From Cymodocea nodosa (Eukaryota > Streptophyta > Magnoliopsida > Alismatales > Cymodoceaceae), in NCBI GenBank assembly GCA_036874045.1, contig CM072337.1:7068001-7132000 (forward strand): 64,000 nucleotides of DNA, given 5' to 3'. Below, in pieces: positions 26,930-53,419 of the stretch (positions are counted from its first letter, which is position 1; each line of letters opens with the position of its first letter). The notes beneath the pieces were generated by a model. The model was not told the origin of the DNA and did not search any database. It saw nothing but the letters and a program-made list of their open reading frames with translations. The position numbers and the translations under genes are program-made.

Positions 26930-27200
26930 AATCGGAAGGTTAAGATAGAGTGAGAAGATAACCCTCCAAAAGCATATAAAAATCGGAAAGTTTCAGAGAT
27001 CGGTGAGTTAGAGGCCTAACTTACCGAAAGAAAAGAATTTTCGGATAGTCACAAGATAACTGTCTCAAAAAGAAATAAGGCACAAGATAGTAACTTGTCG
27101 AAAACTAAGAAATTTTCGGATAGTTACAACTTAACTATCCGAAAAACCCTTAAGACAAAAGGACTAACTCTCCGACGATTGCTAGTACCCAACTAGGTAA
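26930..27200. promoter_or_regulatory. Half-site array upstream of the E third ORF
   Basis: Just upstream of the ATG (element strand) lie at least four half-site pairs. The best is a perfect inverted repeat of 14-bp arms, TTTTCGGATAGTTA at 27113-27126 and its complement at 27132-27145, with a 5-bp spacer. Others are at 27000-27030 and 27043-27068. The variant is the one used in the E LTRs. A TATAAAAA word near 26976 on plus corresponds to no clear box on the element strand. I infer an internal promoter. Confidence 0.6.
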
Positions 27201-28441
27201 AGAAAATAACTCCCCCTAAAAATATGTTGACAAAAAAATCTTAAAATTGAGAAAATCAGACATATCAAAAAGAATAAACTCCCCCTGAATATATGAATAA
27301 AAGAAATCAGCAAAAAAATAATTTTGTTGAGGTATTTGTATTTTTATAATGTTTTTATTTTATGTTATTATTTTTAATTATATATATATATATATTTTAT
27401 TGGATATATCGATATAAATATATATAAGTAGTTCTTGACTAAGAAAATTTTTTTTTTTTTAAATTATAATTATGTGAGAATTACTGAATTATTCAAGGCT
27501 CCACATTAAGATAAATAACACATTTCACTTAGCATAAGGACTTGATCCTATGGTTCACCTTATTAACCTTAAAGAAATCAGGTTTTATAAACTTCAGTGC
27601 TAGAACTTAATATTTTTAGAATAGAAAAATTCAGACACATTTAATATGTTCTCTTCGGCCATTTTGAAATTTCCATGAAGCAACCCCAAGGTATATTTTC
27701 CCTTAACCATGTCTATTATGTAATTAACTAAGAGAAAAAGAAGATCTTTGAGAATTATGAAACTGTTAGTACTACATAGCCATAATTGGAGGTTTTTTTT
27801 TTTTTAACAATATTGATGTTGGTTGCTCTTTGCAACAAACATTCCAATTATTATTTTTTATTTTAAACAATAGCAATCACTTTGACAATACTGAAAAAAA
27901 ATGTAAAGTGTAGAAAGTTAAAAACATTTGGACAAGGTCAAGTTAAATATCTTGAGTCTTATTGCTTCCAGCCACTTTTCCTTGTTTTTCACCCTCACAT
28001 ATTAAACACTTCTAAATTTTTTAGTCATGAAACATTTAGTCTAGCAAATAGGAATACAATCACTGAATTAATTAAGGTAACTTAGCTATTTTTCAGATTT
28101 AGGCCCCCATTCTAAGTGTCATGTGGACATTATTCTATTTGTGGAGCAGAAGCCTTTAGTAATTTGATGAATTAATTTGAGTTGATTTTAATATAGATGT
28201 AAGAAATCATTGTAACTTATAAACTCAATAGAAAATCATCTCAAGAAGAGTGTTGGCAGAGATGTTTTTGTTTTAAAATTTGAAGAAAAATAATTTGTAA
28301 ATATTCTCAAGAAATAACTCAAAATAAGAATTAGATAGAAATAGATTATCAAACTAACTCAATATAATTAAAACAAATAATAGAAAATAAGATGGTGAAG
28401 TAAATATAAAAGAAATAGAAGATAAAAGATAGTAGGTAAAG
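27201..28441 (-). other. E spacer between RNase H and third ORF
   Basis: AT-rich non-coding sequence with two polypurine-like tracts (27210-27217 and 27279-27286), a TA-repeat at 27378-27398, and T- or A-runs near 27450 and 27793. A 67-codon plus-strand frame at 27882-28085 has no recognisable domain. The position matches spacer X of G, but I see no sequence similarity to it. Confidence 0.5.
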
Positions 28442-30035: not shown

Positions 30036-30470
30036 TAGAAATATCACCAATAATAAACTCCTTAGGGTGTTGAGGCAAAAATTTATGAGTCAAAGGATTA
30101 CCATTTCTTTCTTGACCCATGGTACTAGATTCCCTAATATTTGGTTCATCACATTCATAATCTGAAGTATCAATAATTTCTTTTGAAGTATTACTTGGCT
30201 CTTCATCAAAATTTACATGCATAGATTCTTCAACAGCTAACGAATTTTTGTTATAAATTCTATATGCTTTACTTCTTGAAGAATATCCCAAAAATATACC
30301 TTCATCAGATTTTGCTTCAAATTTATCTTTATTCTCTTTTGTATTTAGAATAAAACATTTAGATCCAAAAGCTTTAAAATAATGTACTTTAGGAATTCTT
30401 CCCATCCATAGCTCAAAAGGAGTCTTATTCATGTCTCTTCTTACGGTTACTCTATTTAAAATATAACATG
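30036..30470 (-). pseudogene. E integrase C-terminal part, left of insertion F
   Basis: Open frame reading ILNRVTVRRDMNKTPFELW, SKCFILNTKENKDKF, EGIFLGYSSRSKAYRIYN and an acidic linker to RT. Element F splits the integrase at 30470; the catalytic core lies at 39691-40400. Confidence 0.85.
30466..30470. other. Left target-site duplication of element F
   Basis: ACATG, identical to 39691-39695. Confidence 0.95.
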
Positions 30471-32006
30471 TGTTCAAGCTTTAATTTTGCCCATTTTTAA
30501 TGAATTTTATAAGTAATTTTGCATGATATTATATATCTATGATGGATAAATGATATTAATTATGGGTAATATAAGTCTTGAAATATAGTGCAATATAGAA
30601 ATTTAATTAACAAGTGCATCCCCCATTGAATATAATTTTACATGGAACACATTGATTTTATTTTGAATGTCCTATGTTGGCTAACGTCTTTTGGAGTTCA
30701 ATTTCCATTAATTGTAGGTAACACACATATGGAAGGAGCTTAATGCAAAAGACCAAAAGAAGATGTAAAGAATCAAAAGTTGGTGGACTAAACTTTAAAG
30801 AAGAGGGCATGCCAACACCTTATTGGCCCTCCTAGATCTATGGCATCCTATTGGCTTGGTGATAAAACCAAGGTGCCACATCAAAGAGAGAGAACACATG
30901 CTAACATAAAGGCAAGGGGAGAGGAATTTCGGAGGCCAACTTGGTGTTTCCAAGGAGAGAAAGGAGGAGAAGAAGCTTGGAGGTGAGGCTTGTGCTTCCA
31001 AAGAGAGACCACCCATTCATGCTATTCACCATTCCAAGGGCTAAGGAGAAGACGTCCAAGCTTGGAGGTGGATTTGCTGCCAAGTTCCATTGAATTCAAA
31101 GCTCTAGAGAAGAAGATAAGAAGCTCCTAAGGTAGTGACAACTCTTAGAGTTTATTATTTTCTTGTATAGAAGGAAGAATTGATGAGAAATGGTGGTGAA
31201 CATCTCAATTATATGTCTTCTTAGCTAGATAGAGTTCAATGAATGTATATGAATGTTTAATTCTTCTTTTCAACTTCTAATTTGCATCCTCTATTCACGT
31301 GTATTGTTGGGGCTGTTGGTGAGGCTTTCACACGAGTGAATGACACTCATCAATGGTGGCTTGGCGCATTTGAGAAGAAGGTGTGAATTGAAAGAAGAAG
31401 AAAATAAGTGTTGATGTTCATTTGAATGAAGAACCTATCACTTATATCTAGTTGTTAATTTTAATTTCAGTAGTTAATTGAGTTTGTTATATCTTATATT
31501 GATCACATTTTGTCCTAATCAATCTCCAAAAAGAATTTCTAATGCAAGTAGTATAGTATAGTTTAGCTAGATTAGCAAATAGAATAGTTGAATGCATTTA
31601 GTATAAATTAGAATAGAGTAGTATAGTCTATTGAACCTTGTTGTTTTATTTTTCTTTCCTTAATATTGATGCATTGATATCACTTCTGAAATCACGTGGA
31701 ACTTGTGTGCATGTTATAATTGAATGAGTTGATAGATTTATAAGTAAAGAAATTGATTCACATCACCATTTTCCACTACAAATTGCCTTGAAATTGCATG
31801 ATTTGTGAGCTTGTGTTAACTTTGATTATTCTACATTCACATGTCATTAATTTACTGAAGTATACCTAAGAGCTTGAAGAACAAGTTGAGTAATAGTTAA
31901 TTAAGTCATAAACACAATCCTTGTGGAAGAATGATCTGTATTTGCCATGTACACCAAAAGAACTGTGCACTTGCAGTAAAGCTTGAGTTAAAAATATAGC
32001 TCAACA
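30471..32006 (+). repeat. Element F 5' LTR
   Basis: A 1536-bp LTR, TGTTCAAGC at the start and GCTCAACA at the end. Unlike the Sirevirus LTRs it lacks the half-site arrays. Short open frames inside, on the minus strand at 30795-31083, recur in the other LTR but have no recognisable features; I do not treat them as genes. Confidence 0.96.
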
Positions 32007-32012
32007 AGTTTT

Positions 32013-32030
32013 TGGCGCCGTTGCCGGGGA
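32013..32030 (+). other. Element F primer binding site (Asp tRNA)
   Basis: TGGCGCCGTTGCCGGGGA, the standard Athila-type primer site complementary to aspartate tRNA, seven bases after the LTR. Confidence 0.93.
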
Positions 32031-32155
32031 TTGGCAATTTGGCTTAGTTTTTTTTTACCATATTTGAAGTTCTTAGTTGGTTGTTTGACAAATTTTGATA
32101 AACATATCATTCTTGTGCTTAGTTGTGAATTTTATTGCTTAAATTTCTTGCAAGT

Positions 32156-35100
32156 ATGTCAAATTTTCATCATAATGATCCTTTTAAGTTTATAAATGAT
32201 TTTTTATCTGAAAGTGCTTGTTCTTATTGTCATGTAAAAGGTCATGATGAAAGCATATGTACCAGCAAGTTATTTAATATAAAAATTCAACTAGTAGAAG
32301 AAACAACTCATGTTAGTGATGAATATGATGTCTTGCATGATGCTAGTGAATTTTCTTACGATTTTGATATGCATAAATCTCATATTGATGAAAGAAATGA
32401 TGTTTGTGATTGCTCTCATGTTAGTAGTAGTTCTATAGAAGAGTCCATGAGGAATATAGAGAGAATCATAGAGTTAGGAGATAGCTATTATGTTGCCACT
32501 AAGCTCCTACGACAAAAAGAAGATGTAATTGTCATAGATGATGAAGAAGACTCTAATGTAGATAAAAACGTGAATTTAATCTTAAGATCTGGAAAAACCA
32601 TAGAAAGAAACATATTAGAACATGAAAGTGAAGAAAAACAAAGTGAAGAAAACGTAGATGAAAAGGAAGAAAATATGTTGACAAGAGATGAACATAAGGA
32701 TGTAGAACTAGAACATGAAGGAGTTGAACTTGAAAAATGTCTAATGGATGAAACTAATGAAGAATTAATTGAAGAAAACCCTGTTATAGACTTAGAAATG
32801 GATAAAAAGAAAGAAGAAACATCTGAAAATATGAACAACAAACCACCATTTCCTAGTCGGCTTGACAACAACAAAGAAAATGAGGAAAATGAAGCTATAA
32901 GAACCATATTTGAGAAAATCAATGTTAATATGCCTATGTTAGAATTAATTAGAAAAATTCCAGCATATGGGAGGGTGCTTAAAAACCTTTGTACCAAGCA
33001 TAGGAAGCCAAGAAAAAAATTAAGTAAGCAAGTTTATTTAACCGAGTTAAGTAGTTCAATGTTGCTTGATAGTTTAGCTAAAAAATTCAATGATCCTGGT
33101 GTTCCTCTAATAACTTGCTTAATAGGGAATGTTTTAATTGAAAAAGCATTATTAGATCTTGGTGCAGGAGTTAACGTGATGCCAAAACACTTATATGAAC
33201 AATTGGGAATCACAAGAATTAAGAAAACTAGAACACTAATTAAACTAGCTGATAGATCATATAGGAGTCTCATGGGTATTGTAGAAGATGTCTTAATTCA
33301 AATTGAAGATTTTATATACCCAACTGACTTTATCATTTTAGAAACCAATGCACCAACTTGTGAACCAAATGAATCTACATTGATCCTAGGGAGACCATTC
33401 TTAGCAACTATTAATGCCCACATTAATTGCAGAAATGGTAAAATGTCAATCTCCTTTAACAATAAGGTGATATCATTGAACATTTTTAAAAGAGATAGGA
33501 CTATAAACCATCAAGTAGATCACAACATTAGTGTAAGCATTTCTGAATTATTTGAAGAAGTTGAAAATAGTAGTAATGAGGAAGAACTTAGTGCTGAAAT
33601 TTGCTTCCTAGACGTTGAAGATAATCTAGAACACAAGGCATCGTTACAAGAGAATAGTGGTGAGCATGAAATGAATAATGACTTGATTTTAGAAGTTAAG
33701 GAAAGGAATAAATTAAAAGCACTCCCACAAAATCTGAAATATGCATTTATAGATAAGCAAAATGAATATCCTGTTATAATTGGAGCAAACTTAATCCCAA
33801 ACCAAGAAGAAAAATTAATGAAGATATTAAGTAAAAACAAGAGAGCTCTTGGTTGGCAATTGAGTGATATTGTAGGAGTTAGTCCCACTATAGTTCAACA
33901 TAGAATTATCCTAGAAGATGAGAACTATGCCTTTAGAGAACCTCAACGTAGATTAAATCCCCAAATGAGTGAGGTGGTAAAGAAGGAGATAGTTAAATGG
34001 CTTGACAATGGCATTATATACCCTATTAGTGATAGTAGGTGGGTAAGCCCTGTGCATGTAGTACCTAAGAAATCGGGCTTTACAGTAGTTGAAAATCAAG
34101 ATCATGAGTTAGTGCCTACTAGAATAAAAACTAGTTGGAGGGTATGTATTGATTATCGTAAATTGAATTCTGCAACTCGTAAAGATCATTTCCCATTGCC
34201 ATTTGTTGATCAGATGCTAGAAAGGTTAGCTAGACATGAATTTTATTGTTTTCTTGATGGATACTCTGGGTACAATCAAATACCCATAATCTCTGAGGAT
34301 CAAGAAAAGACTACTTTTACTTGTCCAAGCGGAACCTATGCTTTTAGGCGTATGCCTTTCGGTTTATGTAATGCGCCTGCAACATTTCAAAGATGCATGG
34401 CAGGAATTTTTTATGATATGAATGAAAAATTTTTAGAAATTTTCATGGATGACTTTTCTGTTTTTGGCAAAAATTTTGATATTTGTTTACATCATTTAGA
34501 TATGGTTTTGCAAAGATGTGTTGAAAAGAATTTTATTTTAAATTGGGAAAAGTGCCATTTCATGGTGAATGAAGGCATAGTTCTTGGGCATGTGATATCT
34601 AATAGAGGGATTAAGGTGGATAAGGCAAAAGTTGACGTTATATCTCATTTGCAGCCACCTAAATCTATTAAGGAGGTTAGAAGTTTTTTAGGACATGCTG
34701 GTTTTTATCGTAGATTTATTCATGATTTTAGCAAGATAGCAAGACCTATAACTAATTTACTTGCAAAAGATTCTGAGTTTGTTTTTGATGAACATTGTCT
34801 TGCTACCTTTAATCAACTTAAGCATGCATTAATATCTCCTCCTATAATTCATGCCCCAATATGGGATTATCCTTTTGAAATTATGTGTGATGCCTCCAAT
34901 TATGCAGTAGGTGCAGTACTTGGGCAAATAATTGATAAGAAACATCATGTCATATGCTATGCTAGTAAAACTTTGAATGAAGCTCAAGTAAATTATACTA
35001 TCACAGAAAAAGAATTTCTTGCTGTTGTTTTTGCTCTAGATAAATTTAGACCATATTTAGTTTGCAATCAAGTTATTGTGCATACTGATCATGCAGCTAT

Positions 35101-36316
35101 TAAACATTTGATGAGTAAAAAAGATGCAAAACCAAGATTAATTCGTTGGGTTTTATTGTTGCAAGAATTCAACATAGAAATTAAAGATAAGGTTGGAAAA
35201 GAAAATTTAGTTGCTGATCACCTCTCTAGATTAGAAAATATTCCAGCATGCAATAATGTGATTAATGAAAAATTTCCTAATGAGAGTTTATTTCTAGTTG
35301 GTAAGTTACCTTGGTTTGCAGACATTGCTAACTATCTTGCTACAGGGTTAATACCAACTGATTTATCTAAACCAGATAAGAAAAGATTGAGGTACATGGC
35401 TAAACATTATGTTTGGATGGAACCTTATTTGTATAAAATGGGTTCTGATCAAATTTTAAGAAGATGTCTTCTTGAAGATGAAATTGCTAATGTCTTAAAT
35501 TTTTGTCATAATCATGCTTGTGGAGGTCATCTTAGCCATAGAAAAACTTCTTTGAAAATTTTTGAATGTGGATTTTATTGGCCTTCTCTAATTAAAGACT
35601 CTAAAGATCATTGTAGACATTGTGATAGATGCCAAAGAATGGGAAAAATTTCCAAACGAAATATGATGCCTTTGAATCCTATCATTGAAGTTGAAATTTT
35701 TGATGTTTGGGGCATTGATTTCATGGGACCATTTCCCATTTCTTTTGGTTATTCTTATATTTTGTTGGCTGTTGATTATGTTTCTAAATGGATTGAAGCT
35801 ATCCCAACTAAGAGAAATGATGCTAAAGTTGTTGATTTTCTTAGATCTAACATTTTTGCTAGATTTGGTATTCCAAGAGCTATAATTAGTGATAATGGAC
35901 CTCACTTTTGCCATAGAGTATTTCAAATGGCTTTGAGGAAGTATGGGGTTACTCACAAGTTAGCAACACCATATCATCCTCAAACAAGTGGGCAAGTTGA
36001 GGTATCCAATAGACAAATCAAGCCCATGCTCGAAAAAGTAATCAAACCAAGTAAGAAGGATTGGGCAGAAAAGCTTAATGATGCACTTTGGGGTTATAGG
36101 ACTGCCCATAAAACTGTGTTGGGAATGTCACCATTTAGAGTAGTTTATGGGAAAGCATGTCATTTGCCTATAGAAATAGAACATAAAGCAGAATGGGCTA
36201 TTAGAACATTTAACATGTGTGTTGATGATGCAGGAAAAGCAAGAAAATATCAACTCAATGAGCTGGAAGAAATAAGAAGAGAGGCTTATGAAAATGCAAA
36301 GATTGCAAAAGAATGA
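32156..36316 (+). CDS. F gag-pol polyprotein lacking capsid; PR-RT-RH-IN
   Basis: 1386 codons from ATG 32156 (an in-frame extension to 32135 would need TTG). Order: zinc knuckle [14 protein letters not shown] within the first ~37 residues; an acidic Glu-rich linker; aspartic protease with [12 protein letters not shown] near residue 340; RT with [23 protein letters not shown] and catalytic FMDD; RNase H with [14 protein letters not shown] and [12 protein letters not shown]; integrase with a HHCC finger ([18 protein letters not shown]), [17 protein letters not shown] and [16 protein letters not shown]. No Retrotrans_gag capsid domain is present; Athila Gag normally has one before the knuckle. 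A TGA at 36314 precedes the integrase tail. Otherwise open, unlike all other ORFs here. Confidence 0.93.
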
Positions 36317-36601
36317 GCAAAAGCATTCCATGATAAGAAAATTTTGAGAAAGGACTTTCATGAGGGACAAGAAGTTTTATTATATAACTCTAGATTACAT
36401 TTGTTCCCTGAAAAATTTAAGACTAGATGGACAGGACCATTCATCATTAAACATATATATAATCATGGAGCTATAGCTATAGAAAATTGTAAGACAGGAT
36501 TTAAAACTGTAGTGAATGGTCAAAGACTTAAAGAATATTATCTTGGAAAAACCTACAATCATGGAGAGAGTGCTTTGTTGTTGGAACCCAATTATAATTA
36601 G
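36317..36601 (+). pseudogene. F integrase C-terminal tail after the TGA
   Basis: In frame with the preceding ORF: a KAFHDKKI segment, then EGQEVLLYNSRLHLFPEK, TRWTGPFIIKHIY, KTVVNGQRLKEYY, ending at 36601. This is the SH3-like integrase tail that normally continues from the core. A single TGA codon (36314-36316) separates them, so the core would be made without it. Confidence 0.88.
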
Positions 36602-38137
36602 TTTTTATATGTACTTAGTTGTAGATGTAGTTTTTCTTTTCTTAATTTTTAGTAATTTTTCATTATATGTATTATTGTGTTAGTAGTTAACAATAAAATT
36701 GATTATTGCAAGTTCACGTCTAAATTTTATATGCATGATTTTCAAACACTTGAAGGGTGTAGAATGGGTTGAAAGACTTTATCATTATATCATGTGTTTG
36801 TTTGACAAATTGATGTTCAACCACAATTAGAGTTAAATACATTTTATCTACACTACTTGAAGAGCAATGCACAATAGGTATGCACTAACATTTTTCACTT
36901 ATTCTTATTGTTGAAACAATCCTTTCTACATTGAGGACAATGCAGGAACTAAGTGCGGGGGGGAGGAGAAAGTAAAAAAATGTTTTAGGATGCATACTAC
37001 AGCAATGAAATTGAAAATTTTCCAAATGTAAGTTTCTTTCACAAGCAGGTTGGTGGTAAGTTTGAAAATTCGTTCTATATGTTGCATGCCACCATGTTTT
37101 ATGTGTATCCATGATAAGAACTTGCATGTCAATTTTTTTTTAGGAAATAGCTTTGTTAGTTTAATTTTGATTTTGAATTATTGCATCTTAGCCTTACTAG
37201 CATGCTACTCAATCTCCATTGTATGCTCTTAAGGTTGAGATCATTAATTCTTTACTAGTTTTAGCTTTGTTTTCATTTGAACTTAATTTCTTTTTGTGGC
37301 ATGTTGAATTTTCCTCAGTAATGTTCTTTCCTTATGATGTCTTACACTTAGAGCTGAGCTTATCTTTAAGGTAAGGATAGGAATATGCATTTGAGATGCC
37401 AACCATAGTTTCTTACTTATAACATATACACATTCTTGCACTAGACTCTTAATCATGTGGTATCTAGAGGACTCTTCTTATGACATGAATCTTGAGGAGT
37501 GGCTTAGGAAATCATTCCAATAGGTTGTCCCATGAGAAGGGTAGATATATGAATTTGGGAATAAGGTTTGATACCCGTTCTCATAAGGTTGCTGGGGACA
37601 GAGGCTAAGTAACCTCTTAGTCTTCACGTGTAAACCCTTTATGGGAGGTATCCTAAGGGTAGTGGTAGGATGTGAGAAAAGAGAGGTATCTATTCAAAAA
37701 AAAAGAAAAAAAAAAAAAAAGAAGAGAAAAAGAAGAAGTTGTTCTATAGAATGAATAAAGAAAATACTTTTATAGAATCAAAAAGAAGAAAAATTCAATT
37801 GAAAATAAAGGGGCAATGTACTAGAGGATAGAAGCCTAAAGAAACCTTCATGTATTCTTGGATTAAGTGAGATGAACCTAGATGCTATTGATTATGGGTC
37901 TAAGCACTTTGCACTTAATAGTATCTTAAAAACTTATTTTCCTTAGGTTGGCATTAGATGTCCATTCTAAATTCCTCACCATTACAGGAACTCAACTTGT
38001 GAGTGGAGATTATCTATAAGTATGGCATTACTTGGTGAGAATTTAATTTGCCTTAATTTTCTTTATTGTGTTTGTTTGTTTAAAAGGGATTCCTTAATCT
38101 TTTCTTCTTTAAATTTTGCTAGAGGACTAGCAAAGTT
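36602..38137 (+). other. F 3' non-coding region
   Basis: About 1.5 kb without a supported ORF. At 36926 begins ACATTGAGGACAATG followed by AAGTGCGGGGGGGAG, a motif pair that recurs in block H near 49090 and is typical of Athila 3' regions. A pure A/G-rich simple repeat is at 37696-37735. No third ORF is present, unlike block H. Confidence 0.75.
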
Positions 38138-38151
38138 TAAGTGTGGGGGGG
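38138..38151 (+). other. F polypurine tract
   Basis: TTAAGTGTGGGGGGG immediately before the 3' LTR; it would prime plus-strand synthesis. Confidence 0.85.
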
Positions 38152-39690
38152 TGTTCAAGCTTTAATTTTGCCCATTTTTAATGAATTTTATAAGTAATTT
38201 TGCATGATATTATATATCTATGATGGATAAATGATATTAATTATGGGTAATATAAGTCTTGAAATATAGTGCAATATAGAAATTTAATTAACAAGTGCAT
38301 CCCCCATTGAATATAATTTTACATAGAACACATTGATTTTATTTTGAATGTCCTATGTTGGCTAACGTCTCTTGGAGTTCAATTTCCATTAATTGTAGGT
38401 AACACACATATGGAAGGAGCTTAATGCAAAAGACCAAAAGAAGATGTAAAGAATCAAAAGTTGGTGGACTAAACTTTAAAGAAGAGGGCATGCCAACACC
38501 TTATTGGCCCTCCTAGATCTATGGCATCCTATTGGCTTGGTGATAAAACCAAGGTGCCACATCAAAGAGAGAGAACACATGCTAACATAAAGGCAAGGGG
38601 AGAGGAATTTCGGAGGCCAACTTGGTGTTTCCAAGGAGAGAAAGAAGGAGGAGAAGAAGCTTGGAGGTGAGGCTTGTGCTTCCAAAGAGAGACCACCCAT
38701 TCATGCTATTCACCATTCCAAGGGCTAAGGAGAAGACGTCCAAGCTTGGAGGTGGATTTGCTGCCAAGTTCCATTGAATTCAAAGCTCTAGAGAAGAAGA
38801 TAAGAAGCTCCTAAGGTAGTGACAACTCTTAGAGTTTATTATTTTCTTGTATAGAAGGAAGAATTGATGAGAAATGGTGGTGAACATCTCAATTATATGT
38901 CTTCTTAGCTAGATAGAGTTCAATGAATGTATATGAATGTTTAATTCTTCTTTTCAACTTCTAATTTGCATCCTCTATTCACGTGTATTGTTGGGGCTGT
39001 TGGTGAGGCTTTCACACGAGTGAATGACACTCATCAATGGTGGCTTGGCGCATTTGAGAAGAAGGTGTGAATTGAAAGAAGAAGAAAATAAGTGTTGATG
39101 TTCATTTGAATGAAGAACCTATCACTTATATCTAGTTGTTAATTTTAATTTCAGTAGTTAATTGAGTTTGTTATATCTTATATTGATCACATTTTGTCCT
39201 AATCAATCTCCAAAAAGAATTTCTAATGCAAGTAGTATAGTATAGTTTAGCTAGATTAGCAAATAGAATAGTTGAATGCATTTAGTATAAATTAGAATAG
39301 AGTAGTATAGTCTATTGAACCTTGTTGTTTTATTTTTCTTTCCTTAATATTGATGCATTGATATCACTTCTGAAATCACGTGGAACTTGTGTGCATGTTA
39401 TAATTGAATGAGTTGATAGATTTATAAGTAAAGAAATTGATTCACATCACCATTTTCCACTACAAATTGCCTTGAAATTGCATGATTTGTGAGCTTGTGT
39501 TAACTTTGATTATTCTACATTCACATGTCATTAATTTACTGAAGTATACCTAAGAGCTTGAAGAACAAGTTGAGTAATAGTTGATTAAGTCATAAACACA
39601 ATCCTTGTGGAAGAATGACCTGTATTTGCCATGTACACCAAAAGAACTATGCACTTGCAGTAAAGCTTGAGCTAAAAATATAGCTCAACA
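38152..39690 (+). repeat. Element F 3' LTR
   Basis: 1539 bp, matching the 5' LTR except for six transitions (near 38334, 38370, 39583, 39618, 39650 and 39672) and a 3-bp insertion in a GAAGGAGGAG purine run near 38645. Ends at 39690, followed by the ACATG duplication. Confidence 0.95.
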
Positions 39691-39695
39691 ACATG
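39691..39695. other. Right target-site duplication of element F
   Basis: ACATG, identical to 30466-30470. Confidence 0.95.
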
Positions 39696-42544: not shown

Positions 42545-42583
42545 TGATCTCAGATTGATTAAATCTATTACAAAGATAACCTC

Positions 42584-42595
42584 ACTCTGATACCA
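42584..42595 (-). other. Element E primer binding site
   Basis: The reverse strand reads TGGTATCAGAGT, complementary to the initiator-Met tRNA, two bases inside the LTR edge. Confidence 0.9.
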
Positions 42596-42597
42596 CT

Positions 42598-44329
42598 TGA
42601 AAGGATCGAATGACACACTAGAGGGGGGGTGAATAGTATCCTAATAAAATTTATTTTGCTTTTAAAAACTTTGGAAGCTGTTGACACTAATGAACCCTGA
42701 TTAATTGATTTTGGAATTAAACTAGCAGTGCAGAAAGTAAAGAACACAAAAAGATTTATAGTGGTTCCCCAAACTGGGTAGTCCACTCCTCAAGGCCACA
42801 ACCTCGAGAATTCCACTAAGTGCTTTTAAGGCTAAGCACAAAACTTAAACAAGTTGCTTTTGTAGGCTAAGCAACAACCTTACAGATGTTTTTAAAGGCT
42901 AAACAAAAACCTCACACAAAGCACCAACTTTGTGTACTCAAGACCTTAATCTTGAGCAAGTGAAGTACCACACTTCACTCTCTTTACCAAGGCCCCGACC
43001 TTGTGAAGGTATACTCACAACACCCTTGTGAGTTAAGGTTTTCAAGTAAACGAGAATACAATTTAAAACCAGGAGTCATTGACTCAAAATGAAAATGACA
43101 CACAACACTAGATCAACTCCTATGAAGAGTTGACACAAAAGCTTTGAGGAGATTTCTTGATTGATCTATAGTTGATGATCTTCTGGACTTTGTTGCAGAC
43201 GAATCTTCAAGGTGTTTGTAAAATTATTGAATAGACAATTTCTCCTTTCGAGTGTTGAAAAATTCTGTGTGTGTCTCTTACAGTTTTCTACAAAAATCCT
43301 TTTTATTTTTCTTTTGAGATTTGCATAAGTGAAAAGAATTCTGAAATGATGCCTTATGCAGGAATTGATTTCCGGCAACCTTCAATCATAATAAAGTTGA
43401 GATCTACAATCAAAAGATATCTTGCCACAAAGATTAGTCAATTAATAATAGTTGCAATTTTTGTAAAAATAAAATCTTCGGAGGCTTTCAGAAAATCGGA
43501 GACTTAAATGGATAACCTGTTGAAACTCAAAATCATTTCGGATAGATAGAACTAACATATCAAAAGACCACTTAAGTCATGCATTAAAAATGGAACACGT
43601 GTCCTTCAAAAACTACGTTATAAAATATTAAAAAATAAACTATCCGATAGAGTGGACATGTTTCAGATACTTATAAAGATAACTCTCCAATCCTTAAGTC
43701 ATTTCAGATAGTTACACAGGTAACCTTCCGAAAAGTCACTTAAGTCAGAAAATAAAAGAAAACTCAACCATTCGAAGCTTAAAACAGTTTTCGGATACTT
43801 ACTAAAGATAACTCTCCGATTCTTAAGAGTTTTCGGATAGTTACATCGTAACCTTTCGAAAAGTCACTTAAGTCAAGTGATGAGAGATTGGCACGTGTCC
43901 TTCAAAAGAAAGTAACCGAAAATATATTAAAATAGAGAAACAGCTTACTCTCCAGAATAAAAACCTTAACTATCCGAAACCAAAGGGATTTCGGAGACTT
44001 ATGATAAAAAATCATATCTGGACATAAAAAGACTTAACTCATTGAAGATAAATACTTTTCGGATAGTTACTGATATAACCGTCCGAAAAGCCAAGAGAGA
44101 GAGACATAACCATTCGATTTGTCTTGTTTTGTTCGATGACTTATAAAATAACTCTCTGATCAATACACTATAGACAAAATAACTTGCCAAAATCTAATTT
44201 AAAAGATTTTGAGAACAAAGTAGTTAGCCTAAATTCATTTGAGTAAAAAGACATCTAACATATGGCACAAATAATTAAACCACATGTTTTTCATCATCAA
44301 AATTAACTGATAAAATAAATAAACTAACA
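42598..44329 (-). repeat. Element E 5' LTR
   Basis: 1732 bp, the partner of 22801-24515. Terminal TGTTAGTT (44329) and CCTTTCA (42598). The half-site array runs at 43500-44170; several pairs match the consensus better than in the other copy, for example TAACTCTCCGA near 43811. Outer flank AGGTT at 44330-44334. Confidence 0.93.
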
Positions 44330-44334
44330 AGGTT
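44330..44334. other. Right target-site duplication of element E
   Basis: AGGTT, identical to 22796-22800. Confidence 0.93.
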
Positions 44335-44545
44335 AGTTAACTCAATGAGTTATGCTTAAATATTTTTGGGTACCTTTATTGAATAAACTTTATTCAATAT
44401 TCATTTAAAATCCAAACCTGACTTCTATACAAGTTGAGTTAGTCACCTAAAACCCTATTTAAGCACTTATTACACGGGCACTTAGGTTATTCATAAACCT
44501 TTGTCTGAAAATCTTTCCTACTTGTTCTTGTTACATCCTGCGACG
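44335..44545 (+). promoter_or_regulatory. Leader of the G third ORF
   Basis: Directly right of insertion E: an inverted pair GTTAACTCAATGAGTTA (44336-44354), GAGTTAGTCACC near 44425, then AAAACCCTATTTAAG near 44449, which combines a telo-box-like AAACCCTA with a TATTTAA word about 90 bp before the ATG. The half-site variant (TCAAtG/TCAACG type) is that of the G LTR. I infer an internal promoter; no experiment supports it here. Confidence 0.45.
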
Positions 44546-46794
44546 ATGGTCTCCAAGTATTACAAAGGTCATGGCAAAAGAAAAGGAAAAAGCAGAGGAG
44601 ATGGAAAAGGAAAAGAAATAGACCATGATGAAGTTCCATGAGCTTGGTTTAAGAAAATACTTCAAGTGGACAAAAGGTTAGCAAAAATTTATAGTGAATA
44701 CTTCTTTCCTAAAGGAATACTGAATGAAATTAGATTAGAGCTTCATAACACTGATGAAAGTATTCGAAGCAAGTTTGATAGAGAATATAGAATGAAGTGT
44801 GTCAAAATTGCATTTCTGGAACAGTATGCAAAATATATGGAAAATGGTGTAGGTACATCAACTAGAATTCCTCAAACTCCTATTAGTGGTACACGACTAC
44901 ATGCATTTGAGGAAGAACATGAATCTGCTATTCCTACTCTTTTGTATTCAAAAGAAAAACAAACAAATATTGTTGTGGATAAAAGAAAAGTTGCAGGTCT
45001 TCGAAAGGCAATAGCAATAGAAAGTGCCTTAGAAGAATTAAACTAGAAAACTTTTATGGAACAATTTCAAAAGAAAATAGCAATACTTGAAGAGGAGAAA
45101 CAAAAGTGTTATAGAAGAAGAAAAATCAGAAAAATTATGTTTGAGGAAACAAAGTCTACTGGAAAAAAAAGATCAGATGAGCATTTATTTCCAAAGGATA
45201 ATGTATGTCTAGACATTGTTCCTTTTAGTGCATTTGAAAAACTCATCAGTTTCGAGCATACAGAGATTGATGAAGATAATGAGACTTTATTTTCTCTTGC
45301 TAGAAAACTTGAGAAGAAATCCAAGACAAATATTAGCTCAAGTTTTTCTATTAGTTCAAGCCTTGATGATGTAGCAATTGAAAAATTAGAGCATCAAGCA
45401 ACTGACATAGAACAAGTTATTGCAGATATAATAGAAAATGTTGAGGCAGTAACTAGTTCACAGGCTGAATTATCTAGAGTAATGTATATTGAAAAAGTTA
45501 AGACTCCAAAAGAGCTAAATGTCAACCAGCCTTCTTCAGAATCTATAGAAGCAGAGTTTGAGAATTCATAACATGTATCAATGGAAATATTTGTTGAACA
45601 AAATGAAAAATTACAGACAAATACACTTGCTATAGAATTTGTGGAAAAATTGAACTCTGAACATTCTATAGAGACTAAACTAATGAATGTTGAGCATATT
45701 GAAGATGTTCCTTACACTATTGAAGCTAAAGAATCAAGCTTACATACGCAGCTTCAAGAAAATAATTTCACAAAGGAACAACATGACATTCATTTTGAAG
45801 AAGAGGTTCTTGAAGATGAATTAAACTCTGAATCAAGGCTTCAGGTATCACCTTCTTTGTATAAAGTATTACAAATTCAAGGTAATTCAATTCATTTTAG
45901 ATCTGAGGAAACAGTGTAGAAATACAATAATCTAATTACATGTCAAATTCTACATGCTCAACCAATAAAGTTCAGAAATTTGATTTAAATAAAAGATCTA
46001 TTTGAGTTTCATGGCCTCATTCAATTCTTGCCAGTTGGAATGAAATCGAAACAATATAAAGAGCTTATTGCAGCCTTCTATAGCAATCTAGTCAAGAATG
46101 ACAATATATTGAAAACTCAAATAAATCAATAGGAGTTCACATTGTCTCCTGAATTAATTTTTGAAGTTTTGGGATTGAAAAATGAAGGTGTTGTAACTAA
46201 CAGATTTGACATGATTAGACAATTGGAATAGAACATTCACTCGCTATTAAAAATTCCAGATGTATATACTAAAATGAGATTAATGGAAAATCTGATTGTA
46301 GAGGCAAAGTTACTGCAAATATATTGCATGCCAATTTATTTCAAAGAGTCGGACACAATATGGAAGTCAGTAGAAGTTGTTTATATGCAACTTATGACCT
46401 GCTGAATAGAATTCAAATTAATTGGTTTGATGTTTTCATTTCTCAACTACAACATATGAGTTCAAAGTTATTTTTTGGTAATGCTGTATGTAGACTTCTT
46501 GCAAACCAATTAGATTTATCTGACTGGCCCTTTGAAACTAAAGGCATGAGAGCTTTTAGTGTAAAAGATTTGCAAAAATTCCAAGCTATGCATCAACCTC
46601 AACGACAACAACAACCAACAGAATGTATAGAACATATACAACCACAATAACCAAGTTATTCAGTTCAAGTAGAACAACAACCCCAGCTACCTCTTGACCT
46701 AGATGATGTACTTAACGACATTAGAAATGATATTAGGCATCTAGGTGATAAAATATGTAATGCTATAAGTAATATACTTCAGAGGGATAGATAA
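44546..46794 (+). pseudogene. G third ORF (env-position accessory protein)
   Basis: ATG at 44546, opening with a Lys/Gly/Arg-rich basic tail. Middle parts are acidic and Glu-rich (45056-45919). The core at 45960-46320 reads IKDLFEFHGLIQF, YKELIAAFYSNL, LSPELIFEVLGLKNEGV, and after a frameshift near 46318 ATYDLLNRIQINWFDVFIS and KLFFGNAVCRLL. The C-terminus is Gln/Pro-rich then LDDVLNDIRNDIRHLGDKI. Clearly homologous to the third ORFs of H and E. No membrane span is seen. Stops near 44638, 45044, 45569, 45917, 45987, 46130, 46230 and 46648. Cellular role unknown; positioned like a Sirevirus env-like gene. Confidence 0.8.
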
Positions 46795-47306: not shown

Positions 47307-47320
47307 AAAAAGGGGGAGAT
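47307..47320 (+). other. G terminal polypurine tract
   Basis: AAAAAGGGGGAGAT directly before TGTTGAG of the 3' LTR. Confidence 0.9.
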
Positions 47321-47622
47321 TGTTGAGTATTTTGTTTTGATGATGTGCATTGAATGAAAGTAATCATATTTACTCAATTACTATTGCTTGTGAAAAGAAA
47401 TTAAAAACATCAATTAATACAGAAAAAGCTTACTGATATAAATACTTGTCTGTATTGGATCTAAAATTATACTAAGTTAATAACTAGTCGTTTCGTTGCA
47501 TTAAATTCTCATTTAACTAAACGTTAAGTTAATGTGTTTTTTATTGAAGAACATGATATGTTTTAAAGTTATATTTTCTGTATTATGAACAGTGCACGTT
47601 TAGACAACTCGTTAAGTTAGAG
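47321..47622 (+). repeat. Element G 3' LTR, first part
   Basis: Matches 14216-14517 of the 5' LTR. It stops at 47622 where block H begins. The equivalent of about 14518-14785 is missing; the LTR resumes at 59152. Confidence 0.9.
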
Positions 47623-48240
47623 TTCTGATTCTACCTTTTGTAGCTCTTTCTCTCTTGTTGTATTTTTGATCTTCTATCGCGTGTGTCATTCTTCAGATTC
47701 CTTCAGAAACTGTGCGGTGTCCACTACATCTTCCCAGAATTCAGGTGTCATTTTCCTCATCGTGGAGTTACACAACAGTACGAAATCGCTATGATTTCTA
47801 CTATTCTAGATTCTAAATGATTTGTCGGATAATGCCCCCAAAACCCTAGGTTTTAGTTTAAATAAGCCCTAAGTTTAGGCAGGTAATCGGGTCATTTCCT
47901 GAACCAACTATTACTATTTTATTTGCGGTCTTAGTTACAGTATTCCGTTGAGTTACAGTTAACTCAGTATTCCGTTGAGTTACAGTTAACTCAACAGAAT
48001 AAGCTTGTTGACTAACTCAAGACTCAACGAAGTAAGCTCGTTGAGTTAAGCGTAACTCAATGAACTCCCCGTACAAACATATATAATAATAATAATACTA
48101 TAGATAATAGTTTTTCTGTTTTTTTACCAGTTTAACCGATACGATGTTTCGGTCAGACCTAAATATTTTTTCCGGTTGAACCGATACTATGTTTCGGTAA
48201 AACCAACATTTTTTTCTCTTTTTTTTTTTGTACTTTAAAA
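47623..48240 (-). repeat. Second copy of the H third-ORF leader and first codons
   Basis: Aligns in the same orientation with 52728-53268 at high identity. From an ATG at 47760 it reads MRKMTPEFWEDVVD for about 46 codons, then is cut at 47623 by G LTR sequence. The upstream array has two more CGTTGAGTTA-type units than the other copy (47941-48065). An AAACCCTAGGTTTT telo-box-like palindrome is at about 47839-47853. Confidence 0.8.
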
Positions 48241-48244
48241 GTTA

Positions 48245-48920: not shown

Positions 48921-49059
48921 TTACAATTTATATAAATTTTACAGTCTTAATTATCGAATAGTTACAGCAAGTTCATAAAAATTTTCAATTTCCACAACTT
49001 TGCAGTACCATATTAATTTCTTTAATTAACAAACTTACATGGCTATTACTTTAATTACC

Positions 49060-49100
49060 TGCCCCCCATACCTACATTTTGCATTGTCCTCAATGTAAAA
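49060..49100 (-). other. Athila 3' motif and polypurine-like tract in H
   Basis: The reverse strand reads ACATTGAGGACAATG then, about 10 bases on, TATGGGGGGCAGG. The same pair is found in F at 36926-36965. It marks the 3' non-coding region of an Athila element. Confidence 0.7.
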
Positions 49101-49306
49101 GATTTGACAATAAGTACAGTAATTGTAGTAGGCATGAATATAGTTTTGTTTGATTTAAAATTCAGGTTGAGTAATTAGTTACATACCTTGTTCCGTTTGT
49201 ATCTCTCTATGCATATTCTGATTTTTTTTATTCTGAAAAACTTTTCATTCACAGATAAAAGAAAAATATAAAACAAAATAACTGATATTAATAAATCAAT
49301 GTCTTT

Positions 49307-49726
49307 TAAAGAAAAAGGGATATATCTAAGTTTAATAGCATCTATACTCATGTTCGACATTGTCATCATTTGACAAACTTCATTAAATTCTCTAAGGAAA
49401 TAATAGGCATCCTCTCTTTCTAATCCATGAAAATGTGGCAATTGACTAATATAATTAGATTTCAGTTCAAAGCTATCTCCCTCAAAGGTTGGCAATCGAA
49501 TACATGAAGGTTCATCAACTAATTCAGGATACAGAATCTCTCCTAATGGTTTTTCTACTAGAGTAGCCATCTCTACGTTCTCTTTTAAAGAAAGGTTAGC
49601 TACACCCTAAAGAATTTCGTTAAAGTTCAGTTTAGAAAATTTTTCAGTACTCCTCTGCAATGAAAATTCCTAGGTAGGTGTTCTTACTAATCGTTTAGTG
49701 CTTAGAGAATGGGTCCATGTGCTCAT
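49307..49726 (-). pseudogene. Displaced gag capsid fragment in H
   Basis: From ATG 49726: MSTWTHSLSTKRLVRT, then after two stops LSLKENVEMATLVEKPLGEI, CIRLPTFEGDSFELKSNYI, LPHFHGLEREDAYYFLREF, EVCQMMTMSNMSIDAIKLRY, PFSLKD at 49310. This is the N-terminal capsid part of Athila-type Gag (Retrotrans_gag family), which normally sits before the zinc knuckle. Here it lies 3' of pol and of the third ORF, and breaks off at FSLKD. It is either a fragment of another Athila element or a relocated gag. Confidence 0.75.
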
Positions 49727-50672
49727 AAATAAATAGCAAAAGATTAATTACATACTAGTCTAAAGCTTTCCATTCAATAAATATTTGTTATCAGATGAAG
49801 TTGAATCAGCTACTTCACTTTCTAGTTCCTCCAACGCATTTCTCCTTTCTTTTAAAAGTGCTGGTAACTCGTAAATAACATTCTATTTTATATATATACT
49901 ACACATTCATAAAGTGAATAAATCTCGTTGCAAGACACGTTCTTGCAACGTGCATCGTGGTTCCTGTTTTTACGGGTACGTGTACCACTACTAATTTCAA
50001 ATTTTGGTAACCACTAAACCAACGAAGTTTCGTTCCTGGTTAAAAGAATAACTGTTCTGCTTAATCTACGAACTAACCTCGTTGAGTTACAGATTACTCA
50101 ATGGAACACAGTCAGTTACTATTGCTAACTCCACAGACTAACTTCGTTGAGTTACAGATAACTCAACGGAGTGACCTTATATTATATTACTGACCTCGTG
50201 GAGTTACGTTTAACTCAACGGACTTACTTCGTTGAGTTAACACTTGGCAACTTCTAAGTTTTACTCTCGTAAGTACCTCTCTATTTTTTTTCTTTGTTTA
50301 TTCTGCTAACTAAAATAAAGTTAAATCTATGTCATTAATGCATCATTCTAATTAAAATTCGTTTAAATCTGAACATTATATAAGTATTTAACTTGCAGGT
50401 CATTTTATGTTATGCAGAATTTATATTTTACCTTGCAACATGCAGAAATTTTTAAGCATTTATCCTGTCATTCAGCAAATTGTAAATCTGTTACATATTT
50501 ATTTATAAAGTTCCACAAATTACATAATATTCAATAAATTCCATTCATTTCACATCCAAAACATGTATGAAAATTGCATTTGAAAAATTATATTCATTAA
50601 TATGAATCAATTACATTACAAGTACATCATACAATTTCATACAATTTTACACAAGTAGATGAACAATACAAT
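49727..50672 (-). promoter_or_regulatory. Region between H third ORF and displaced gag, with half-site array
   Basis: About 0.9 kb. At 49990-50250 is an array of CGTTGAGTTA / TAACTCAACG pairs (clear at 50084-50104, 50147-50167, 50195-50222 and 50229-50239), then CACGTGT-like words near 49975. Nearer the gag, a short reading frame (about 49770-49870) gives LPALLKERRNALEELESEV, a coiled-coil-like fragment I cannot assign. The placement of the array before gag resembles a promoter or a worn LTR; no primer site was found. Confidence 0.45.
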
Positions 50673-52865
50673 TTAATCTCTATTCCTAAGTTCATCTACT
50701 TCCTTCTAGAGTTTTTCTAATTGAAGTTCTAATTGATTAATTCTTTCTACAGCTTCTGTAATTCCTCTAGAAGGTACAGCTAGTTCTGCAACTACAAAAT
50801 TTCTGTATTCTTTCACTAAAATGGTTCTTGATCTGATCCTTTTTGATGTCCATTTAGTGAAATTGATACAGTCCACCATCAGCAATGAAATCAAATCTCC
50901 ATAAAATAATTTTTTCTTTACTGTTTTCGACTTGGAGATAAAAACTATAGACCAATTTATTTGAATCTTATTTACAACTGCATATGTGGCCCATTTGACA
51001 AATTGACTTAATTCTATGTCATGGCCTTGTCATTGATAGACATTTTTAATCAGAATGTTAGCTACCATGTGTGCTTTACCATTTAAATGCTTCAATCTGT
51101 TTAATAATGGCACACTACGATTGATAGCTAAACAATCCTTAATTTCTTGTTCAGTCCACTCGACGATAGTTGTATCTTCCAAAATTTTTATTCCTTCATT
51201 CTTTAAACCACAAATGTTGTGGAGAAGCTCTGGTGTTATCTGTACATCAGCTTCCTCCACGTTTGAAATTAATCCTCCTTCTCTTTCTCTTAAATTTGCA
51301 TAAAAACAGGGCACTAAATTCTCATATACTGCATGCCCTCTCTCTTGAGAAATGAATTACAGTAGACCTTGGAATTCAAATAGATCTTTAATTTCTTGCA
51401 TTCCATCCCAATTTACTAGTCTACTGTAAATAATGTCATAACCCCTTATTTCTTGGTATTTGGTATAAGCTTCCTAACTACAAAAATGTACTTCATTCAA
51501 AATTATTATTTCAGTCGGGTCAGGAAGGTGACTTTGTTGTTCTAGAGGGGTTTGTACTTGCTCTTCCTCTAACATAGGTTGCATTTGAACATTTTCAATA
51601 GATTCCTGAATTTCTGTTTCTGTTTGTGGTGGTAAGCCAGCAAAACTCTCCACTCTGTCTTGAATTCTTTCCATAAATTGCTGAAGAGTTTCTTGTTCTT
51701 CAATGGAATCTGTGAAATTATTTTTGTCCAAATGGCTTCTTTCAGCCTCTTCATTTTCTGCTCTTTCTTCTTTCTCCTGACTACCAATCTGTTCTGTTAC
51801 TATTCTTTCTAATTTTGTAATAGATTGGGATGGAGTCACGGGCAATTCAGTTTCTGCCCTAATTTCTGTTTCTTCTTGTACAGGCTGCAGACTAATTTCA
51901 ACCTGATTTTCTTCTTTTCTTTGCTCCTACTATTGCAGCTCCTACTCCTCCTGAGAATCGGATAGCAAGTTTATAAAAATTTGCTCCATAGGCCCTGTTG
52001 ACAATGGTATCTCAGATTTAATCTCTTTTGGATAGTTAGGCATTATCTCTTTTCCTTTCCTTTTTCTGATTAATTGTGCATCTTCTTCTTCTAAGATTAA
52101 ATCTACAAAAGTAGGCTCTACAAGCCTTCGAGCCACAGGTACTAGCTTTTCCTGTTTAACTTTTTCTATAATTACTGGCCTCGAAGGACCAACCTCTCCT
52201 ACAGCACTTGATTTAGTTGTTGCCTGATATTGTTCAACTTTTATTTTGTATTGGGCCCTTATCCTTTCTTCGACCCTTTTTTTCTTAATGGCATCATATA
52301 AAATATGTGCCTTAGTCGTATCTATCTCTTGAGTATCACCTTGGTCTCTTGCTATTTTGACCAAGCTAATAAATTCTTTCTCTTCTTCTTCAATTCTCGG
52401 CTAAGCAAATGCAACTCGTGGCAATGGCTCTATTGGCTGAACTGGAGGTCCTGACTGTTGTTCCTCAAGAATAGGTCTTTCAGCAATTGGTTCTTCCTAT
52501 TCTCTTGCTTGTTGTTGCTCCCATATTGCCCAGCTTCCTTGACCAGCAATGCGTTTCTTAAACCACAATCTGGCTTTACATTGAATTAGCTCTAAGGCTA
52601 CTTCATTGTTTGGCCGGATTTTTCTTTCTTTACTAACTACAATTTCAGTTGCCACTCTAATCCGTGTCTCCATTATCTATGGTATTTGTATTTCTAACTC
52701 AACTAAAACTTTCCTCAAGTTAAAGAGTTCTGATTCTATCTTTTGTAGCTCTTTCTCTCTTGTTGTATTTCTGATCTTCTACTACGTGTGCCATTCTTCA
52801 GATTCCTTCAAAAACTGTGCAATGTCCACTACATCTTCCCAGAATTCAGGCGTCATTTTCCTCAT
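50673..52865 (-). pseudogene. H third ORF (env-position accessory protein)
   Basis: ATG at 52865 (MRKMTPEFWEDVVDIAQFLK), stops soon after, then charged Glu/Lys-rich regions (51942-52364, 51474-51845) and the conserved core at 51030-51480: KYQEIRGYDIIYSR, IKDLFEFQGLL, YENLVPCFYANL, ITPELLHNICGLKNEGI, LKHLNGKAHMVANIL, then ATYAVVNKIQINW and KKLFYGDLISLLM. C-terminal coiled coil (INQLELQLEKL). Shares this core with G and E although those are Copia elements. About seven stops. No membrane span or signal peptide visible. Function unknown; I infer a DNA- or RNA-associated accessory role only from its linkage to half-site arrays. Confidence 0.8.
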
Positions 52866-53419
52866 CGTGGAGTTACACAACAGCACGGAATCGCTCTGAT
52901 TTCTACTATTCTTGATTCTAAATGATTCGCCGGATAATGCCCCCAAAACCCTAGGTTTTAGTTTAAATAAGCTCTAAGTTTAGGCAGGTAATTGGGTCAT
53001 TTCCCAAACCAACTATTACTATTTTATCTGCAGTCTTAGCTACAGTATTCCGTTGAGTTACAGTTAACTCAACGAAATAAGCTCGTTGAGTTAAGCGTAA
53101 CTCAACGGACTCCCTGTACAAACATATATAATAATAAAAATACTACAGATAATAGTTTTTCTATTTTTTTACCGGTTTAACCGATACGATGTTTCGGTTA
53201 GACCTAAATATTTTTTCCGATTGAACTGATATTATGTTTCTGTAAAACCAACATTTTTTTTTTGTTTTGTTTTGAAAATTAATATACATATTTTGTATAT
53301 TCTAGTCATATCGATGGATCTAGTCGGTTGAACCGCAATGATTTTTATATTATATATATATATATATATTTTATTTTTTTTAATGTTTTTTTTTTATATC
53401 AACATAAAAATTGATTTTC
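52866..53419 (-). promoter_or_regulatory. Leader of the H third ORF, with palindrome pair
   Basis: Two perfect inverted repeats with 10-bp arms, CGTTGAGTTA against TAACTCAACG, lie at 53051-53074 and 53084-53107, each with a 4-bp spacer. Nearer the ATG are a TATTTAAACTAAAAC word and a telo-box-like AAACCCTAGGTTTT at about 52945, features common near plant transcription starts. At the far end is a TA-repeat (about 53352-53372) and T-runs. The array variant is the one in LTR H. Confidence 0.55.

Follow-up and report, generated by a model that had tools for sequence, protein, structure and literature searches.

Palindromic box arrays in the LTRs and ahead of the extra genes of Ty1/copia and Ty3/gypsy retrotransposons of Cymodocea nodosa

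A stretch of 64,000 nt from Cymodocea nodosa (CM072337.1; "the window" is this whole stretch) is a nest of plant long terminal repeat (LTR) retrotransposons. Three of them, the Ty1/copia elements E and G and the Ty3/gypsy element H, have a third open reading frame (ORF3), and arrays of short palindromic boxes lie both in their LTRs and in the leaders upstream of ORF3. In the multi-copy gypsy family of H, such boxes precede three genes: ORF3, a displaced gag-like ORF and an F-box ORF. The arrays are probably promoter-proximal protein-binding modules of the Sirevirus repeated-motif kind, one for each gene unit. This is proposed from the observed position and enrichment of the arrays, the absence of exact sites from coding sequence, a partial class match between leader and LTR, and recurrence on different contigs.

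The core of this finding is already present in the available text of Bousios et al. 2010 (PMC2829016). Palindromic repeated motifs were described there in the LTRs of 13 Sireviruses. Extra copies were found in the linker of the nine ENV-containing ones, 77 of 79 of them upstream of the ENV-like gene, and the four Sireviruses without an ENV-like gene have none in the linker. Each element has one consensus, an internal ENV promoter was supported, and the motif was called Sirevirus specific, the comparison set being Ty1/copia. The initial annotation of the window had presented the sharing of boxes by LTR and third ORF as its best candidate for an undescribed system, which it is not, because this sharing was reported for Sireviruses in 2010 (PMC2829016). 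The boxes before three genes of a gypsy family go beyond that description.

Half-site arrays in the window

The boxes are dyads of the form CGnnnAGTTA-N(mostly 2-7)-TAACTnnnCG. Exact CGnnnAGTTA half-sites occur 96 times in the window, whereas 20 Markov simulations gave 2.25 on average, and the sites are concentrated in LTRs and third-ORF leaders. With up to one mismatch, 51 pairs of half-sites face each other across a spacer of 2-7 nt. At the same stringency, the density is 27/kb in the E leader versus 0.6/kb in the remaining E interior, 0.9-1.4/kb in the ORF3 bodies of G and H, and 1.7/kb in simulated sequence. The 5' LTR of E contains 21 such half-sites (positions 141-824 of 1732), the G LTR 18 and the LTR of the Sirevirus family I 31, with 2-7 complete dyads per LTR.

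The half-sites can be divided into two classes. The GA class (CGGAnAGTTA and relatives) has the outer ends CGG...CCG, and the T class (CGTTGAGTTA, CGTTAAGTTA, CGTGGAGTTA) is without CGG-CCG. In the window, the spacer is 5-7 nt in 26 of 27 GA dyads and 3-4 nt in all 17 T dyads, and the right arm of the GA dyads is GAT in 24 of 27. An absolute two-class spacer rule was rejected: in the window plus 26 further loci, described below, the spacer is 5 nt or longer in 106 of 163 GA dyads and 9 of 125 T dyads. In the wider set without families I and R3, 26 right versus 14 left GAT arms were counted. Neighbouring T dyads are 32-34 bp apart in 28 of 43 cases, near three helical turns; in many leaders the distance is 66 bp, or about six turns.

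Perfect T palindromes with a 2-6 nt spacer occur 8409 times genome-wide, versus 0 for the reversed control, and the spacer is 4 nt in 51 of 53 distinct places among those listed (own count). A search for the palindrome pattern gave 0 occurrences in viral contigs. In genome contigs, two bacterial places were taken as chance and not used.

The palindromes could alternatively form hairpins in the transcript, or chiefly give rise to small RNAs used in host silencing, a role discussed for maize Sireviruses. Folding is far better than in shuffled sequences (z -4.1 to -10.9) for five stretches, of which two belong to the E leader and one each to the H leader, an H LTR array and the array before the gag-like ORF, and LTR palindrome motifs are small-RNA mapping hotspots in maize, according to the available text of PMC5311732. 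Good folding does not separate the readings, because any palindrome folds well. The GA dyads in the window are systematically imperfect, and nothing in RNA would require T dyads to be spaced at near-helical intervals; both count against the RNA reading, which is quite improbable compared with the binding of a protein to DNA.

In the E leader, the palindromes of the initial annotation are borne out, with 10 half-sites (up to one mismatch) in 368 bp and a palindrome with 14-bp arms at about 27113-27145. The two perfect palindromes of the H leader (53051-53074 and 53084-53107) are likewise present, but the claimed agreement with the LTR extends to only half of it, because the first half of the LTR (10131-11180 in the window copy) is mainly of the GA class. 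For the G leader, the motif TAACTCAATGAGTTA is present at 44338-44352, but as a single overlapping palindrome accompanied by weak sites; in the G LTR, TTA predominates and TTG forms a sub-array. E has a TATA-like word at -98 and G one at about -90; the chance per random 36-bp stretch is 0.10. Diverged repeats around AACCGA...TCGGTT are found upstream of the array in the H leader (53166-53345). The stretch 50080-50239 was considered as a 3' LTR of H and rejected; comparison with other copies places this array before the gag-like ORF.

A chance match of leader and LTR is likely when three elements fall into two classes (1 in 3 by our own permutation arithmetic), and therefore a wider sample was needed. 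It consisted of 20 tiles of 10 kb at 40-kb steps and six shorter follow-ups from the same genome beside the window, numbered as loci (L009, L032 and so on).

Genes and arrays of the gypsy H family

The order of the H family was assembled from several copies, none of them read whole: LTR (about 2.2 kb, ends not proven), Asp-type primer-binding site (PBS), pol, T array, ORF3, T array, gag-like ORF, T palindromes, F-box ORF, 3' untranslated region and LTR. Pfam matches that pass the curated cut-offs link the gag-like ORF to PF03732 (E 7e-6 and 3e-5) and the F-box ORF to PF00646 (E 1.1e-11 and 3.1e-10). The gag-like ORF lies 3' of ORF3 (L015:7000-8091, L032:2485-3576, L011:3823-4915; window 49606-49178), and a gag domain was not found in the H 5' piece checked (window 57079-57753). 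F-box matches were obtained in 6 of the 26 tiles and follow-ups (L015:8447-9292, L032:3931-4776, L011:5266-6104, L017:5804-5002, L031:3759-4548, L010:3776-3600), and a 3' LTR follows the ORF in L010, L011 and L017.

Genome-wide, at least 138 places (of 6234 first-look candidates) match nearly all 282 residues of the F-box protein at 89% or more, many of the listed ones with an open frame of 389 codons. At least 150 places (of 9633) match the ORF3 core at 90% or more. Among the matches listed, 21 ORF3 places have a same-strand F-box place 2.7-3.15 kb downstream (own count). The F-box stretch has no stop in L015 and one in L032, and the ratio of nonsynonymous to synonymous substitution rates (dN/dS) between the two is 0.56. 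For comparison, dN/dS is 0.27-0.49 for the second piece of the gag-like ORF (three comparisons) and 1.21 for its first piece (one), 0.52 for one ORF3 piece, 0.52 for gag57, and 0.24 and 0.42 for the integrase. These ratios suggest at best mild constraint on the F-box gene. A homologous-protein search with the H-family F-box protein returned no relative, and the PDB sequence search gave nothing useful. In a limited search of the open literature by titles and abstract starts, no description of an F-box gene in a plant LTR retrotransposon was found.

Exact half-sites are absent from 17,554 bp of H-family coding sequence, and the 15 one-mismatch sites there are below the simulated background. Before the gag-like ORF, 36 of 37 exact half-sites are of the T class (7 segments), and before the F-box ORF all 9 are, in 3 of 5 segments. 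For replication, 20 ORF3 leaders and 20 stretches upstream of the F-box ORF were taken from the match lists, one place per contig, and dyads with up to one mismatch per arm were counted. This sample favours younger copies, because the places were drawn from among the best-ranked protein matches. Dyads precede the F-box ORF in all 20 further copies on different contigs, with 51 exact sites, all T; the spacer is 5 nt in 37 of 37 dyads, and two dyads start 34 bp apart in 17 copies. Dyads are present in 15 of the 20 further ORF3 leaders, which contain 59 T and 1 GA exact sites and a 4-nt spacer in 29 of 31 dyads.

Promoter-like words accompany these arrays. TATTTAA with the same surroundings is located 113 bp before the ORF3 ATG in five of eight H copies (the window copy, L010, L011, L019 and L026). 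L015 has the identical string with an ATG unmatched by the pattern, L009 is without the string, and the place in L021 is beyond the tile end. TATTTAAACT occurs in 13 of the 20 further ORF3 leaders, at -113 in 9 of them and with the ATG unmatched in 4. TATATATAAAA follows the array before the gag-like ORF by about 200 bp in both copies read (L015 and L032).

Correspondence of leaders and LTRs across families

Four families with ORF3 are represented in the sample: E, G and J (copia) and H (gypsy). The exact half-sites of the leaders are GA in E (10 of 10; 3 segments) and J (12 of 13; 2 segments), and T in G (2 of 2; 2 segments; one more ATT site lies left of the E insertion) and H (33 of 33; 9 segments, namely window H, a second leader fragment H' and 7 other copies). 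In the LTRs, E has 16 of 16 GA (3 segments), G has 37 T and 9 GA (5 segments), and all 18 half-sites of J are of the AAx/GAT kind (6 segments). The H LTR is composite: its first half contains 41 GA and 12 T among 54 exact half-sites, and its second half 17 of 17 T (6 segments each). The J LTR was assigned through an upstream LTR and PBS at a fitting distance in L028 and L027, not by a continuous read.

Leader half-sites were scored under the LTR model of each family, using all typed LTR segments. The own-family pairing ranks first of 24 with exact sites and second of 24 when one mismatch is allowed, G and H then changing places. The ranks are identical in an earlier run with fewer segments; the rerun added the G LTRs L018 and L029 (with GA blocks), two H first halves, three window G LTR pieces and H'. 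The J leader fits the J LTR with 0.70 bits, the E LTR with 0.68 and the H first half with 0.66. The H leader fits the G LTR with 2.47, the whole H LTR with 2.43 and the H second half with 4.80, the split into halves having been made after seeing the data. The G leader is represented by 3 exact sites in this test. The correlation of leader and LTR is real at the class level and weak below it, because the leaders of J and H fit other LTRs about equally and G has few sites. Thus, LTR and third ORF do share a box in E, G, J and H, as initially suggested, but the match is not exclusive, and the expected correlation of variants holds for classes without clearly tracking ORF3 relatedness.

One apparent counterexample, L012, has a GA leader and a T LTR. 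No polypurine tract (PPT) precedes that LTR, which is therefore probably an unrelated insertion, and the case was dropped. Family I has no ORF3, and no sites were found in the 2.6 kb of its interior seen.

ORF3 proteins

Homology links the ORF3 pieces of E, G and H. The H core resembles PF20167 (Transposase_32) weakly (E 0.0018, below the curated cut-off), and Pfam gave nothing else for the ORF3 pieces. PDB sequence searches with the E and H cores gave nothing useful. A homologous-protein search found one relative of E ORF3 (P0001) and none for the H core. Trees were built from three short pieces; they conflict with one another and lack support values. In the tree of the core piece, J is closer to H. 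All three proteins have basic runs resembling nuclear localization signals and heptad-like stretches near the C-terminus. The Kyte-Doolittle maximum over 19 residues is 1.66 for a segment of E ORF3, which is borderline hydrophobic, at most 1.09 for H and at most 0.89 for G.

These proteins raise the question of self-recognition similar to that of VANC, in which each ORF3 protein would recognize its element's array, both in the LTR and in the leader, and counter silencing. Arrays accompany ORF3 in E, G, J and H, the gypsy element that lacks an ORF3 match is free of arrays, and leader and LTR match in class within families. The basic runs and heptad-like stretches would suit such a role, and the 3' ORF protein of a sunflower Athila element, which is similar to PF20167, is predicted to be nuclear in the available text of PMC11728184. 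Against this, no DNA-binding fold was found in the Pfam and PDB sequence searches, family I has GA arrays and no ORF3 (although VANC6, too, acts on unrelated copies), the array class does not clearly track ORF3 relatedness, and the H LTR carries both classes. A membrane role of ORF3 is also possible because of the borderline hydrophobic segment of E. Self-recognition is therefore rather unlikely, and binding of a factor from outside the element is preferred.

Movement of array blocks

The similarity between leaders and LTRs is limited to array blocks. The E leader is similar to the E LTR over 34-69 bp, and the H leader, the array before the gag-like ORF and that before the F-box ORF are similar to the H LTR over blocks of 43-63 bp (86-93% in the best pieces). 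Between J leaders and the first half of the gypsy LTR, alignments extend to about 500 bp, at 70-83%. The array blocks thus move within elements and between copia and gypsy, which favours a cross-family factor over strict self-recognition.

Two further similarities between the superfamilies were observed. The G-family LTRs at 1-1531 (725-893), L018 and L029 contain an inserted block of the GA class that resembles the gypsy LTR in its first half. The linker between pol and ORF3 of G (21430-22793) has 72-76% similarity to sequence lying just ahead of the 3' LTR in the gypsy H family, which points to sequence exchange between the superfamilies.

Movement of this kind could also mean that the arrays have no function, and that tandem duplication, recombination and fragment insertion spread repeat-prone sequence in non-coding parts. 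The blocks shared by J leaders and the first half of the gypsy LTR, the GA blocks of the G LTRs, and the H arrays shared with the H LTR agree with it. However, the positions recur across contigs and in several families, and the non-coding stretch 48241-49170 has only 2 sites in 930 bp. In the available text of PMC2829016, distant Sireviruses with different motifs show identical placement. A functionless origin has little probability in view of these patterns, and promoter-proximal modules remain the preferred reading.

Comparison with known systems

As in the Sirevirus repeated-motif boxes, high-copy palindromes lie mostly in the upper half of the LTR (21 half-sites in E, 18 in G and 31 in I here, compared with at least eight palindromic copies in the described boxes), with extra copies before the ENV-like gene (leaders of E, G and J) and none in its absence (family I, in the 2.6 kb of interior seen). 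E and G also share the PPT, the Met PBS, the copia pol and the ENV-like ORF with Sireviruses. The arrays here differ in having two dyad classes, with T-class boxes lacking the CGG-CCG core, and in being present in Ty3/gypsy H leaders, so that they are not restricted to Sireviruses.

An Asp-type PBS is typical of Athila-type elements. The H family is tentatively comparable to Athila-type Ty3/gypsy elements (PMC11728184) in its Asp-type PBS (2 mismatches), its gypsy pol and its 3' ORF with weak PF20167 similarity, but its gag-like and F-box ORFs lie 3' of ORF3 with palindromic boxes before each. VANDAL elements with VANC likewise combine an element-encoded extra gene with motif arrays in non-coding parts (PMC5735166, PMC10398659; available portions). 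They are class II elements with motifs in the same orientation and with demonstrated binding and demethylation, whereas the dense arrays here are inverted dyads, most with a 2-7 nt spacer. Grande gene23 and Retand TRP28 also lie between pol and the 3' LTR, and the Grande gene has its own promoter and a nuclear product (PMC7264820, PMC11963269). These are antisense genes of other gypsy lineages, the tandem repeats of Retand are family-specific, and LTR-matched boxes are not mentioned in the available portions of the two papers.

Proposed function of the arrays

From the letters of the DNA, we infer protein binding, promoter activity and the identity of the binder. A factor, probably a host transcription factor, would bind the dyads as DNA; some half-sites may resemble plant MYB sites. 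The bound module would serve the LTR promoter, and a further module before each extra gene would serve an internal promoter, so that each extra gene is proposed to be read from its own internal promoter. The Ty3/gypsy family would use such modules for three genes downstream of pol: ORF3, the gag-like gene and the F-box gene.

Several observations weigh against this proposal. The dyad is absent from 5 of the 20 further ORF3 leaders and from 2 of the 5 stretches before the F-box ORF in the first sample. The H LTR also carries GA arrays that are missing from its leaders. Both the spacer rule and the GA-dyad polarity of the window are less strict in the larger sample. AT-rich DNA often contains TATA-like words, and the intervals examined for them were chosen once the sequence had been seen. 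The palindromes before the F-box ORF may be intronic rather than promoter-proximal, because they lie directly upstream of a splice-acceptor-like TTWTACAG (16 of 20 copies by reading; 6 with a narrower script pattern).

The function of the third ORF in plant env-class retrotransposons has long been open. LTR-matched boxes before several extra genes, in copia and gypsy, make the idea of internal promoters testable in one genome with many copies. The shared boxes point to one trans-acting factor common to unrelated elements. The high-copy F-box gene is a candidate counter-defence gene of an LTR retrotransposon, by analogy with polerovirus P0, which is an F-box protein. An extended version is unlikely, though conceivable: the gypsy family would be a multi-promoter, virus-like element with pol, ORF3, displaced gag and F-box as separate units, each with the box of the LTR; an element product (ORF3, or an F-box protein removing a silencing factor) would act on the boxes or on host silencing; and the box system would be common to unrelated Ty1/copia families of this genome, so that copia and gypsy families could exploit each other's factors.

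Layout of the window

Elements E and G are Sirevirus-type, with the PPT AAAAAGGGGGAGATTG at 24514 and 47307 and a Met-type PBS near TGGTATCAGAGC. Their copia integrase, reverse transcriptase and RNase H frames were identified by visual inspection, and tblastn recovered them in other copies as well. E is inserted in the ORF3 leader of G, directly beside the G palindrome (22801-44329), with a 5-bp target duplication, AACCT. LTR retrotransposon insertions show a weak palindrome preference, absent in the nested set alone, in the available text of PMC6911290.

Table 1. Positions of elements, arrays and related features (window coordinates unless a locus is given).
Feature	Position	Strand	Remarks
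J-family (copia) LTR within the gypsy LTR of the next row	8090..9309	-	AAx/GAT half-sites
Other H-family LTR	9309..11180	-	GA array 10131-11180 (first half), T array 9309-10130 (second half); ends not proven
Element G 5' LTR	14216..15864	+	T class (TTA + TTG); Met PBS at 15868
Element E 3' LTR	22801..24515	-	GA-class array (about 24221-23866); PPT at 24514; 92% to 42597-44330; target duplication AACCT; half-sites
Element E third ORF	24733..26882	-	several stop-free pieces, longest 25162-26163; 31% to H core piece, E 2e-14
E leader	26883..27250	-	10 half-sites (up to one mismatch); TATA-like TTTATATG 98 bp before ATG
Gypsy element nested in E	30470..39691	+	LTRs 99.4% alike; no ORF3 match; no array
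Element E 5' LTR	42597..44329	-	GA-class array; Met PBS at 42583
G leader right of E insertion	44335..44545	+	TAACTCAATGAGTTA; TATTTAA about 90 bp before ATG
Element G third ORF (broken)	44546..46791	+	32% to H, E 4e-20
Start of G 3' LTR	47321..47623	+	after PPT 47307; resumes at 59153
H', second H-type leader fragment	47766..48240	-	T class
H-family gag-like ORF, truncated	49178..49606	-	itself without Pfam match; longer relatives match PF03732
T-class array before gag-like ORF	50080..50239	-	arrays in corresponding stretch of L009, L011, L015, L017, L031, L032
Element H third ORF (broken)	50676..52856	-	core weakly Transposase_32-like
H leader	52857..53420	-	two perfect T palindromes 33 bp apart; TATTTAAA 113 bp before ATG
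Element H gypsy pol	53421..57753	-	reverse transcriptase, RNase H, integrase; Pfam
H LTR second half	58200..59151	-	T-class array; Asp-type PBS at 58179 (2 mismatches)
I-family Sirevirus LTR	59944..61428	-	GA class; element without ORF3
H-family regions similar to G linker	L011:7238-8052, L017:4582-3719, L010:2498-1676		

The 3' LTR of G is broken at 47623 and continues at 59153 with about 267 bp missing, and H lies in between. The block 47624-59151 contains H together with a second leader and an ORF3 start, and there are no LTR ends at its junctions. It is a rearrangement rather than a clean insertion, because of the lost 267 bp or so and the junctions without LTR ends. The gypsy element nested in E (30470-39691) is an internal negative control for the arrays. 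A recognized gag domain is absent from its long frame, and the element is possibly dependent on other elements.

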